Assembly: GCA_029863065.1 (NCBI GenBank)
Contig: JAOTWE010000005.1
Coordinates: 1 to 34,955, forward strand
DNA length: 34,955 nt
From: Betaproteobacteria bacterium
GTDB taxonomy: Bacteria > Pseudomonadota > Gammaproteobacteria > Burkholderiales > SG8-39
Direction of reading: 5' to 3'
Shown here: positions 30,032 to 34,567 of the stretch, one piece after another
Numbering within the stretch: the first letter of the stretch is position 1
Layout: each line of letters begins with the position of its first letter
Made by a program: the position numbers and the translations under genes
The notes under the pieces: generated by a model
Told to the model about the DNA's origin: nothing
Database searches by the model: none
What the model saw: only the letters and a program-made list of their open reading frames with translations

Positions 30032-31123
30032 ATGGCGAAGGCGCAGGTCCTCGTGATGCCGGCGGCCCGCAACACGGCCATGATCGTCGATGACCAGTCG
30101 ACCGGTCGCGCCATCCTAGAGCAGGTGGTGCGCTCGCTCGACGAGCGGGTCGCGGTTGAGGCATTTGGACGTCCGGTGGACGCGGTGGTATGGGCGACGC
30201 GGCATGTCGCCGACCTGGTGCTGATCGACTATATGATGCCAGACATGAACGGCATCGAGCTCGCCACGCGGTTGCGGGCGCTGCCCGGCTACGAGCACGT
30301 GCCGATCATGATGGTGACGGCGCACGACGACCGCAAGGTGCGCTACGACGCGCTTGACGCCGGCGTCACCGATTTCCTCATCAAGCCGGTGGACGCGCGC
30401 GAGTGCATGGCGCGCTGCCGGAACCTGCTGACCCTGCGTCGGCAGCACCTGGCGCTAGAGGACCGGCGGCGCCTGCTCGAGGGCATGGTAGACGACGCGA
30501 CGCGCGAGGTGCGCAATCGCGAGAAGGAAACGCTGATGCGCCTGGCGCGCGCCGGCGAATTTCGCGACGAGGAGACCGGCTATCACCTGGTGCGTATGGC
30601 GCGCTACTCGCGCCTCATCGCCGACACCATTGGCCTGGAGCGCGACGAGGCGGAATCGGTCGAGCTCGCCGCGCCGCTGCACGACATCGGCAAGATCGGC
30701 ATTCCCGACCAGATTCTGCTCAAGTCGGGCCGGCTGGACGAGTCGGAGGCCAAGATCATGCGCCGCCACCCGCTCATCGGCCACGAGATCCTGAAAGGCA
30801 GCGCCTCGAAATACGTACGCATGGGCTCGCTCATCGCGCTCGGCCATCACGAGAAGTACGACGGCACCGGCTACCCCAACGGCCTGGTCGGCGATCACAT
30901 CGCGCTTTGCGCGCGCATCGTGGCGGTCGCCGACGTCTACGACGCACTGACCTCGATCCGGCCGTACAAGAAAGCGTGGGCGAACGAGCAGGCCTTCGAC
31001 TTCCTCGGCGCGCAGCGCGGCAAGCATTTCGATCCGCAGCTGGTGGCCGCGTTTTCCAGCGTGCGCGATGCGGTGGCGCGAATCCAGGAAGAGCTGCGCG
31101 ACCCGGAGGCGAAACAGGCATGA
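30032..31123 (+). CDS. rpfG: RpfG-type response regulator, receiver plus HD-GYP domain
   Basis: Predicted cyclic-di-GMP phosphodiesterase activated by phosphotransfer from RpfC. The 363 residues have a receiver at about 14-135 (acidic pocket Asp20/Asp21, phospho-acceptor Asp66 in LIDYMMPD, Lys118 in FLIKPVD), a linker helix, and an HD-GYP domain at about 165-350 with HDIGKIGIPD (His217, Asp218), GHHEKYDGTGYP and DVYDALTSIRPYK. The ATG at 30032 has AGAGGGA just upstream; the ORF-track start at 29951 lacks one. The stop overlaps the next gene's ATG (ATGA). Name by architecture and pairing with an RpfC-like kinase; other HD-GYP regulators look similar. Confidence 0.88.
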   Translation: MAKAQVLVMPAARNTAMIVDDQSTGRAILEQVVRSLDERVAVEAFGRPVDAVVWATRHVADLVLIDYMMPDMNGIELATRLRALPGYEHVPIMMVTAHDDRKVRYDALDAGVTDFLIKPVDARECMARCRNLLTLRRQHLALEDRRRLLEGMVDDATREVRNREKETLMRLARAGEFRDEETGYHLVRMARYSRLIADTIGLERDEAESVELAAPLHDIGKIGIPDQILLKSGRLDESEAKIMRRHPLIGHEILKGSASKYVRMGSLIALGHHEKYDGTGYPNGLVGDHIALCARIVAVADVYDALTSIRPYKKAWANEQAFDFLGAQRGKHFDPQLVAAFSSVRDAVARIQEELRDPEAKQA

Positions 31124-33645
31124 AGCTTCCGGGCTCGGTCTGGTGGCGTTGGGTGCGCGCGCGGCTTGCGGCGCGGCCGGACACGGAGCACGAGCAGGCA
31201 ATCGTGCGCGTGGCGATCGGTGCGTTGCTCGGCCTTTACCTACTGCCCGAGATCCTTGATCGGCACGCCGAGGGCCTGCCCGAGCGGCATATCCTGGTAT
31301 GGATCAGCTTCCTGGTTGCCTCGACGGTCATTTTCGGCGCAATTCTCGCGTCTCCGCGCGCATCGCCGGCGCGTCGCGTCGTCGGCACAGTCCTCGATAC
31401 CGCCACCCTCAGCTGGTGCATTGCGTATTTCCAAGAGCTGGGCATTCCGCTCTTCCTCGTCTACCTCTGGGTCACCTACGGCAACGGCTTTCGCTACGGC
31501 GCGCGTTACCTCCTGATATCGCTGGTTCTGAGCATGCTTGGATTCGCGGCGGCGCTGAACGTGAGCGAGTACTGGCAGGCGCGTCTCAACGTCGGCGTCG
31601 GCATGATGGTCGGATTCGTCGCCTTGAGCCTGTACGTGCTGACGCTCGTAAGGCGCATGTTCGACGCCATCGATCGCGCCGAAGCCGCCAACCAAGCTAA
31701 ACGCCGCTTCATCTCCGTGGTCAGCCACGAGATGCGTACTCCCCTGAACGCCATTATTGGCATGGCCGACCTGATGCGCGACACGCCGCTCACGCGCGAG
31801 CAGGCGGACATGCTGCAGACGCTGCGCGGCTCGAGCCAGGTGATGCTGGGCCTGGTGGAGGACGTGCTCGATTTTTCCAAGATCGAGGCCGGCAAGCTGG
31901 TGCTGGAGCGCACCGACTTCGATCTGCACGCGCTCGTCAACAGCACCAGCCGCATCCTGCAGGCGCAGGCGCAGGCGAAGAGCATCGAGTTCGTCGTGTC
32001 AATCATGCCGGAGGTGCCGCCGGGGTTGCGCGGCGACGCGCACCACCTGCGCCAGGTACTCATCAATCTTGCCGGCAACGCGGTCAAGTTCACCGAGCGC
32101 GGCAGCGTCACCGTGCACGTGTCGCTACAGGATGAGACGGACACGCGCGTGCGCCTCAAGTTCTCGGTGCGAGACACGGGCGTCGGCATTGCGCCGGAAG
32201 CGCAGCAGCGCATCTTCGACAGCTTTACGCAGGCGGACCAGTCCACCACGCGGCGCTTCGGCGGCACGGGCCTCGGCACCACGATCGCCAAGCAGCTGGT
32301 CGAGCTGATGGGCGGGCGCATCGGCCTGGAGAGCGCGGTCGGTCTGGGAAGCACGTTCTGGTTCGAAAGTGCATTCGACAAGCAACCGGAGCGCGCGGGC
32401 GCCGGTGCCGGCGAGCTCGCGCTGGCGCGCGTGATGCTGATCGGCTTCCCGCCTGCGAGCGCGCAGCCTGTCGAGCAAGCGCTCGCGACATGGGGCGCAG
32501 TAGCGGTGCGCGCCGCTTCGGTGGACGAAGGCGCGGACCGGCTGGTCGCCGACATCGCGCTCGCCAAGCCCTACCACAGCGTGCTCCTGTACTCCGAGCA
32601 CGGGGACGCAGAGCTGGCGCGGCGCCTGCGCCGGGCGGCACCCGAGCCCGCGCCGCCCTCGGTGCTTGCAGTCCCGCGCGAAGCCGAAGTGCAGCGTTTT
32701 GCCGCGCTCTCGGCAGGCTTCAGCGCGGTGCTCGAGCTGCCCGCGGAGACGCGCCAGCTGTTCAACGTGCTGCACTCGATTTCGTCGACGGACGAGGTAC
32801 GCGAGGGCGTGGTGCGGCTGCAGGACTACGCCAAGCGCGACCAGGACGCGAAACGCCTCAATGTTCTGATAGCGGACGACAATCACACCAATCGCGAGGT
32901 GCTTGGCAAAATCCTCGAGCGCGGCGGCCACGCGGTCACCCGCGTCGCCGATGGCGACCAGGCGCTGGACGCGTTGGAGGCCGGCCGCTTCGACATCGTG
33001 CTGCTTGATCGCAACATGCCGGGTTTGAGCGGGCTGGAGACGCTGCAGGCGATCCGCCTCATGACCCGCGGCCGCGAGCGTTTGCCGGTGGTCATATTGT
33101 CCGCGGACGTGACGGTCGAAGCACGGCGCGAGTGCCTCGAGGCCGGCGCCGACAGTTTCGTGCCCAAGCCCGTGGAGGCGATGCGCCTGCTGGACGAGTT
33201 GCGCACCCTTACGGCCGGCGCGCCCAGGGAGGCGCCGCGCACGGCTCTGCCCGCCGGCAGCACGGTGCCCGCCGCTGCGGCGGAGGTCGTGAACCCGGAA
33301 ACGCTGACGCACCTGGAGGAGCTCGGCTCCACGCCAGACTTTCTCGAGCGCCTGGTGGGGGTGTTCGTGGCCGACAGCCTGTCACTGCTGGCGAAGATGG
33401 AGGCGGCGGTGGCCGCGCGCAATTTCGGCGAATTCCGTTCGCATCTGCACGCGATGAAAGGCTCGGCGGCGAGCATCGGCACAGAGCGCCTGACGCGGCT
33501 TTGCGCCAGTCTCGGAAAGTACTCGGACGCGGAACTGAGGCTGCAGTCGGCAGGTCTGATGCACTCGCTGAGCGAGGAGTTCGAGCTGGGCCGCTCGGCG
33601 CTGGAGCGCCACGTGCAGGAGAAGAGCAGCAGGTCGGCAAGCTAG
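31120..33645 (+). CDS. rpfC: RpfC-type hybrid sensor histidine kinase (TM-HisKA-HATPase-REC-HPt)
   Basis: Predicted inner-membrane DSF sensor of 841 residues. About five membrane helices lie within 27-178, and the periplasmic loops are very short, as in RpfC. They are followed by HisKA with His203 (SVVSHEMRTPLN) and an HATPase with LINLAGNAVKF, DTGVGIAP and GGTGLGTTIAKQL. A receiver-like but degenerate segment spans about 434-555, then comes a true receiver at about 580-695 with Asp630 (LLDRNMPG) and Lys683, and an HPt domain at about 725-835 with His777 (HLHAMKGSAASIG). It is longer than the classical RpfC because of the extra receiver-like segment. The ATG overlaps the rpfG stop by 4 nt, so they form an operon. 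Identification rests on architecture and on the neighbouring RpfF-like gene. Confidence 0.85.
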   Translation: MKLPGSVWWRWVRARLAARPDTEHEQAIVRVAIGALLGLYLLPEILDRHAEGLPERHILVWISFLVASTVIFGAILASPRASPARRVVGTVLDTATLSWCIAYFQELGIPLFLVYLWVTYGNGFRYGARYLLISLVLSMLGFAAALNVSEYWQARLNVGVGMMVGFVALSLYVLTLVRRMFDAIDRAEAANQAKRRFISVVSHEMRTPLNAIIGMADLMRDTPLTREQADMLQTLRGSSQVMLGLVEDVLDFSKIEAGKLVLERTDFDLHALVNSTSRILQAQAQAKSIEFVVSIMPEVPPGLRGDAHHLRQVLINLAGNAVKFTERGSVTVHVSLQDETDTRVRLKFSVRDTGVGIAPEAQQRIFDSFTQADQSTTRRFGGTGLGTTIAKQLVELMGGRIGLESAVGLGSTFWFESAFDKQPERAGAGAGELALARVMLIGFPPASAQPVEQALATWGAVAVRAASVDEGADRLVADIALAKPYHSVLLYSEHGDAELARRLRRAAPEPAPPSVLAVPREAEVQRFAALSAGFSAVLELPAETRQLFNVLHSISSTDEVREGVVRLQDYAKRDQDAKRLNVLIADDNHTNREVLGKILERGGHAVTRVADGDQALDALEAGRFDIVLLDRNMPGLSGLETLQAIRLMTRGRERLPVVILSADVTVEARRECLEAGADSFVPKPVEAMRLLDELRTLTAGAPREAPRTALPAGSTVPAAAAEVVNPETLTHLEELGSTPDFLERLVGVFVADSLSLLAKMEAAVAARNFGEFRSHLHAMKGSAASIGTERLTRLCASLGKYSDAELRLQSAGLMHSLSEEFELGRSALERHVQEKSSRSAS

Positions 33646-33901: not shown

Positions 33902-34567
33902 GTGTCGTTCTTCATCACGCTGATTGAGAGCTCCGACGCCAGCCGGCGCGCGCTCGAGGCGGAGCCACGCGTGCACGCCATGGTCCGCGACGGCCTGACG
34001 CTCGAGGAATACCGGGCCTTCCTGCACGAGCTGTATCACATCGTGTGGCATTTCTGCCCGGTCATGGCCGCGGCCGCGGCGCGTTGCGGAGACGAGTTCC
34101 GCGAAGTGCGCTACGCGCTTTACGAGCGTATCGAGCAGGAGAAGGGGCACGAGGACTGGGTTCTGGAAGACGTCGAGGCAATGGGAGGCGATGTCTCCGC
34201 GGTGCGTGCCATGCTGCCGAGCGCTCCGATGCAGGCGATGACGGCGTACAACTACTATGCGGCGGAACATGTGCATCCGTGCTCGGTGCTCGGCATGCTC
34301 TTCGTGCTCGAGGTGATCGCCTCGGTGTATGGCGGGCGCTTGGCGGGCGCGATCGCGCGCAAGATCGGGCGCGATGCGGCGGCGGGCGGCTTCAAATTCT
34401 TGTCTTCTCACGCCACCATGGAGCTCGACCACATGGCGAGCCTCAACCGCCTGGTGAACAAGATCGAGGACCCCGCCGCGCAGGCGGCCATCGTCCACTC
34501 GACGAACGTGAACTTCCATCAGTTCGGCCAGATCTTCAGGGCCGGCGGTCCCCTGGGTCCGGGTTAG
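33902..34567 (+). CDS. Heme-oxygenase-like di-iron oxidase (HDO/TenA-PqqC fold) family protein
   Basis: An all-helical 221-residue protein of the iron-containing redox enzyme type, with regularly spaced acidic and histidine residues able to bind two irons: Glu43 and His46 (HELYHIVWH), Glu80/His83 (EQEKGHEDW), Glu122-His123 (YAAEHVHP), His170 and Glu174/Asp176/His177 (HATMELDHM). HDO enzymes oxidise varied substrates; UndA in this superfamily acts on medium-chain fatty acids. No substrate can be read from this sequence. The GTG at 33902 has GGGGGAAGG just upstream; the ORF track's earlier start is not supported. It sits between rpfC and the convergent rpfF-like gene (4-nt gap), suggesting a link to DSF chemistry, which is inference. 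Confidence 0.8.
   Translation: MSFFITLIESSDASRRALEAEPRVHAMVRDGLTLEEYRAFLHELYHIVWHFCPVMAAAAARCGDEFREVRYALYERIEQEKGHEDWVLEDVEAMGGDVSAVRAMLPSAPMQAMTAYNYYAAEHVHPCSVLGMLFVLEVIASVYGGRLAGAIARKIGRDAAAGGFKFLSSHATMELDHMASLNRLVNKIEDPAAQAAIVHSTNVNFHQFGQIFRAGGPLGPG

Follow-up and report, generated by a model that had tools for sequence, protein, structure and literature searches.

The window, a 34,955-nucleotide stretch of Betaproteobacteria bacterium DNA, carries in its rpf locus a gene for a predicted heme-oxygenase-like di-iron oxidase (HDO), and homologues of this gene are systematically linked to rpfF. We propose that the HDO is an optional, dedicated partner of RpfF that would oxidise the released acyl product and so give a modified DSF. 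This reading, whose reaction and substrate are suggested by gene linkage, gene fusions and a retained metal site, stands at about an even chance in our judgement.

The rpf locus and the HDO gene

As shown in Table 1, genes for an RpfG-type response regulator and an RpfC-type hybrid kinase lie upstream of the HDO gene and rpfF lies downstream, which bore out the placement in an earlier note on this DNA, between the DSF sensor and the presumed DSF synthase. The rpfF gene is split over two assembly contigs (window 34955 / G000:C233:2); its N-terminal 182 codons were found on the other contig of the same genome (G000:C233:2-547), and both glutamates aligning with conserved Xanthomonas RpfF positions are present in this part. 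For the full-length relative P0001, the nearest solved structures were RpfF proteins (7zq7, 3m6m and 6dgn; 3m6m at 9e-48); it scored 200 of 550 bits, under the NCBIfam RpfF equivalog cut-off, and passed PRK08788. Judged by sequence, the window locus is a predicted Rpf/DSF gene set, with an RpfF that has both glutamates, an RpfC-type kinase and an RpfG-type response regulator with an HD domain. It resembles the Xanthomonas Rpf/DSF locus (PMC4504480) in its tandem RpfG- and RpfC-type genes, which face an RpfF-family crotonase gene in convergent orientation, and in the retention of both aligned active-site glutamates by this crotonase. Unlike the reviewed Xanthomonas rpfGHC-rpfF layout, which has no HDO, the loci studied here hold an HDO, and in some relatives other lipid-type genes, in the rpfC-rpfF interval, or have the HDO fused to RpfF.

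The HDO reading frame is a real gene and its coordinates are exact, with the stop codon at 34565-34567. The GC content by codon position was 0.67/0.43/0.86, a coding pattern for a GC-rich host genome. The protein matched Haem_oxygenas_2 (PF14518) at E=7e-18, with a score of 65 bits (cut-off 28.9). Since this was the sole Pfam report at E<=0.001, without PF01126 or PF03070, a canonical heme oxygenase and a TenA protein were both rejected. A scan for promoters and terminators found none.

Table 1. Coordinates of the genes and predicted metal-ligand codons in the window, and of interval genes in related loci (prefixed with the locus).
Feature	Position	Strand	Remark
RpfG-type response regulator	30032..31123	+	HD-GYP-like HD domain
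RpfC-type hybrid sensor kinase	31120..33645	+	5 hydrophobic N-terminal segments, HisKA-HATPase-REC-Hpt
HDO gene	33902..34567	+	GTG start, 221 aa, PF14518
E80 codon, predicted metal ligand	34139..34141	+	first core helix, E-x2-H; aligned with conserved CADD Glu
H83 codon, predicted metal ligand	34148..34150	+	invariant 87/87
E137 codon, predicted metal ligand	34310..34312	+	invariant 87/87
H170 codon, predicted metal ligand	34409..34411	+	H-x3-D/E-x2-H, invariant 87/87
E174 codon (GAG), predicted ligand position	34421..34423	+	Asp in other 86 relatives
H177 codon, predicted metal ligand	34430..34432	+	invariant 87/87
rpfF, C-terminal 127 codons	34572..34955	-	convergent with HDO gene, 4-bp gap, cut by contig end
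PF04116 fatty-acid hydroxylase	L002:5009-5953	-	between rpfC and HDO
PF04116 fatty-acid hydroxylase	L005:5023-5937	-	between rpfC and HDO
Alpha/beta-hydrolase	L186:5559-6470	-	
Alpha/beta-hydrolase	L187:8349-9260	-	
Alpha/beta-hydrolase	L190:6397-7404	+	
Alpha/beta-hydrolase	L002:4067-4978	+	together with HDO
Alpha/beta-hydrolase	L054		in rpfC-rpfF interval
ACP and ketoacyl synthase	L057:5615-7143	+	g5

Fold and predicted metal site of the HDO

The AF2 model of the window HDO was all-helical, with a pLDDT of 90.4 and a pTM of 0.87. Alignment with the conserved residues of CADD placed a predicted 3-His/3-carboxylate (3H/3C) site at E80-x2-H83, E137 and H170-x3-E174-x2-H177. The individual CADD ligands, under their residue numbers, were transferred to the window protein by the profile alignment. 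Conservation was counted over 87 aligned sequences, the window protein and 86 relatives. E80, H83, E137, H170 and H177 were invariant (87/87), and position 174 was Asp in 86 of the 87 and Glu in the window alone, where it may reflect divergence or an error. H46 and H50 were dropped as metal ligands because both vary among the relatives. The 3H/3C ligand pattern has been described for HDOs (PMC13108848), and the window protein is predicted to be an HDO-superfamily oxidase with a di-iron (or mixed dimetal) centre, a complete site of this kind being spread over three core helices. The earlier note had described an all-helical protein with E/H/D spacing as in di-iron HDOs and had suggested structure prediction as a check; model and alignment agreed with the description, and the complete metal site was retained in both.

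We compared the protein with solved structures and characterised HDOs. Foldseek placed the model nearest to 3dde (TM 0.84), CADD (TM 0.82) and UndA (TM 0.77), and a profile built from both HDO clades, the rpf-linked one and its sister, matched 3dde at 6e-49, CADD at 4e-11, MboA at 9e-8 and UndA at 0.002. The nearest solved structure by both sequence and fold is therefore 3dde, an HO-fold protein of unknown function from Shewanella denitrificans, and the profile is nearer to 3dde, CADD and MboA than to UndA. The fatty acid decarboxylase UndA, which converts C10-C14 fatty acids into 1-alkenes, shares the fold and the 3H/3C site, and a fatty-acid substrate would be a further likeness, although its profile similarity to the window family is weak. 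All six metal positions of CADD, a pABA synthase, align with the window HDO. However, the self-sacrificing residues of CADD, Tyr27 and Lys152 (PMC11965152), are replaced at the aligned places by V24 and L147, and their absence led us to reject a pABA-synthase function. MboA, the mangotoxin acetylenase/desaturase, provides an example of desaturation by an HDO, but it acts on a peptide and has a redox partner, MboB (PMC13185094).

Linkage to rpfF and RpfF-HDO fusions

A sequence search yielded 22 relatives, in which the HDO gene adjoined rpfF wherever the contig reached far enough. Of the 98 genomes in the window's family, 25 had a strong HDO match, with rpfF adjacent in 24 of them, including L008, whose rpfF is a fragment at a contig end; in the 25th the contig broke off at this point. 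Across 399 genomes surveyed at the level of the order, rpfF stood beside 7/7 strong HDO matches, while about 50 weaker matches lacked it as a neighbour. Many of these genomes are MAGs related to one another, and shared ancestry makes the counts partly non-independent. The neighbourhood survey that the earlier note had put forward thus found a systematic linkage (24/24 in the family, 7/7 strong matches in the order and four fusions), which holds for the rpf-linked HDO subfamily and fails for PF14518 at large. The sister clade is unlinked to rpfF and has an AMP ligase and an SDR as neighbours, even in rpfF-positive genomes, and we therefore rejected the idea that PF14518 proteins in general are linked to rpfF. 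One locus, L009, was kept out of the main evidence: besides its first HDO copy it carries another with a frameshift, a fatty-acid desaturase and an internally deleted rpfF (L009:326-3842), and it looks damaged or misassembled.

The 33 rpf-linked HDOs form one clade, falling on one side of a branch with an SH-aLRT of 94, against 54 sister HDOs, and an AMP ligase and an SDR were found beside 54/54 of the sister HDOs and 0/33 of the rpf-linked ones. The sister HDOs have 30-34% identity, the same metal site and an acyl-activating neighbour, but they stand away from rpfF, and ten positions are fixed differently between the clades. Several are fused to the acyl-activating AMP ligase (L136, L161, L215-L222), indicating that acyl-type partners recur. 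The sister operon is widespread (L068:6537-10829 and relatives), in the order thermostable-hemolysin-like / AMP ligase / HDO / SDR / TPR-like, and the thermostable-hemolysin-like gene preceded the AMP ligase in 8/9 larger sister regions.

Four related alphaproteobacterial genomes encode RpfF and the HDO as a single polypeptide (628-688 aa); one of them is the MAG L023, and the other three came from a search of its order (L023/G850, 630 aa; G891, 628; G866, 688; G883, 675; all reading frames free of stops). In the AF2 model of the L023 fusion, residues 335-406 form a disordered linker between two folded domains. All four fusion genes are divergent from a response regulator/kinase gene, beyond which a complete RpfC-like hybrid kinase was found in L023/L228 and L226, with contig ends nearby in L225 and L227. 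Fusion is the strongest sign that the HDO and RpfF share a pathway.

The gene order was found to vary. In most loci the HDO gene comes after rpfC and converges on rpfF; the two need not then be co-expressed, which counts against the dedicated-partner reading; other loci have same-strand rpfC-HDO-rpfF (Noviherbaspirillum L017/L019/L020), overlapping HDO and rpfF reading frames (L060) or the fused gene. Pairwise HDO and RpfF distances correlate at r=0.93 over 31 loci, which is in favour of a partnership, although common ancestry by itself would also produce such a figure. If the HDO made an unrelated metabolite and had stayed in the locus by descent, its position would carry no functional meaning. 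Close loci do share most of their gene order, which makes the counts non-independent. However, the linkage outlasts changes of order, four fusions occur, and the rpf-linked clade had no copy away from rpfF in the surveyed genomes, the extra copy of G803, which has one paralogue beside rpfF and one elsewhere, being of the sister type. We therefore regard a purely positional association as very improbable.

Among the family genomes, 50 have rpfF and 24 have the HDO-rpfF pair, so that about half of the rpf loci lack an HDO and DSF signalling presumably works without it, a further point against our preferred reading. HDO presence mapped on the RpfF tree gave about 10 changes, suggesting that the HDO is an optional module.

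Proposed role of the HDO in DSF signalling

Other genes were found in the rpfC-rpfF interval. A PF04116 fatty-acid hydroxylase gene was present in 6/31 non-redundant HDO loci and 0/38 rpfC loci without HDO (Fisher p=0.006, uncorrected for relatedness). Besides the two copies of Table 1, it lies between rpfC and HDO in L007, L010, L025/L062 and L175, and it is confined to HDO loci. An alpha/beta-hydrolase (Hydrolase_4) occupies the interval in several loci, usually where the HDO is absent, and L002 has both. In one genus, g5, an ACP and a ketoacyl synthase are found there (L057, L194, L195 and L196). This content is consistent with an interval in which enzymes that modify or supply lipids gather.

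RpfF dehydrates 3-hydroxyacyl-ACP and frees the cis-2-enoic acid, with saturated acids among its other products (PMC4504480). In UndA, which acts on mid-chain saturated acids, lauric acid is bound through Fe1 (PMC13108848). On the proposed route, the HDO would receive a free C10-C14-type acyl acid from RpfF, or its 3-hydroxy or 2-enoyl precursor, and the carboxylate would be bound at the HDO iron, as laurate is in UndA. The HDO would then activate O2 and desaturate or hydroxylate the acyl chain, and RpfC would sense a modified, O2- and iron-dependent DSF-family signal. The PF04116 hydroxylase-like protein may add a second modification in some species. A chain oxidation that retains a signal is favoured because the HDO is joined to the synthase, desaturation by an HDO is known from MboA, and a second fatty-acid oxygenase stands beside some copies. 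It speaks against an acyl substrate that MboA and BesC, both well-studied 3H/3C HDOs, act on a peptide or an amino acid. The Glu at the conserved Asp ligand position of the window copy also counts against our preferred explanation.

The earlier note had held that the HDO may tailor or consume DSF. Action on an RpfF-related acyl substrate is likely in view of the adjacency to rpfF, the fusions and the retained metal site. We consider the decarboxylation of DSF itself in the manner of UndA unlikely: in one of the mechanisms put forward for UndA, hydrogen is taken from C3, and on chemical grounds C3 of a cis-2-enoic acid, being vinylic, is ill-suited to this. The same point weighs against a turnover role, in which the HDO would use O2 to inactivate DSF and so bring signalling to an end. 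Turnover would draw on the same linkage and fold evidence, and the alpha/beta-hydrolase that replaces or accompanies the HDO in several lineages (L186, L187, L190 and L054; both in L002) speaks for it. However, a synthase fused to the degrader of its own product would be unexpected, as fused partners more often process the product forward, and we consider turnover fairly unlikely.

Two further substrates were weighed. The HDO might clear away the saturated acids freed by the RpfF thioesterase, releasing them as 1-alkenes as UndA does, in a role comparable to that of Xanthomonas RpfB; the thioesterase side reaction and the counter-role of RpfB are on record (PMC4504480), UndA takes mid-chain saturated acids (PMC13108848), and the fold is close to UndA. 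But the profile lies nearer to 3dde, CADD and MboA, and every second rpf locus does without an HDO, which leaves such a clean-up a fair but unlikely alternative. The HDO could also act upstream, on acyl-ACP or a 3-hydroxyacyl compound, and so provide RpfF with an unusual acyl chain. The ACP and ketoacyl synthase of the g5 relatives (L057, L194-L196) would suit such precursor supply, yet in 3H/3C HDOs of known structure the substrate is bound directly at Fe1, and to our knowledge no 3H/3C HDO acts on an ACP thioester. We hold this upstream action to be quite improbable.

For oxidation of the RpfF product, the reading we prefer, a wider picture is conceivable. DSF diversity is usually attributed to the precursors reaching RpfF. 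Within the open-licence literature that was the scope of our search, no description of an HDO paired with DSF or RpfF was found. It is possible, though we would put it somewhat below an even chance, that in one branch of DSF signalling the signals are oxidised and depend on O2, their synthase being an RpfF-HDO pair encoded by two genes or joined as two domains. Such signals would form an undescribed class, with variants arising through the exchangeable lipid-type genes of the interval.

Carriers in culture (Noviherbaspirillum, among them the environmental strain sp. Root189) and the single-chain fusions make the proposal testable now, and those working on HDO biochemistry would gain a candidate for which a fatty-acid substrate is strongly implied. 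If the proposal is true, the HDO would be a dedicated DSF tailoring or turnover step that ties quorum sensing to oxygen and iron.
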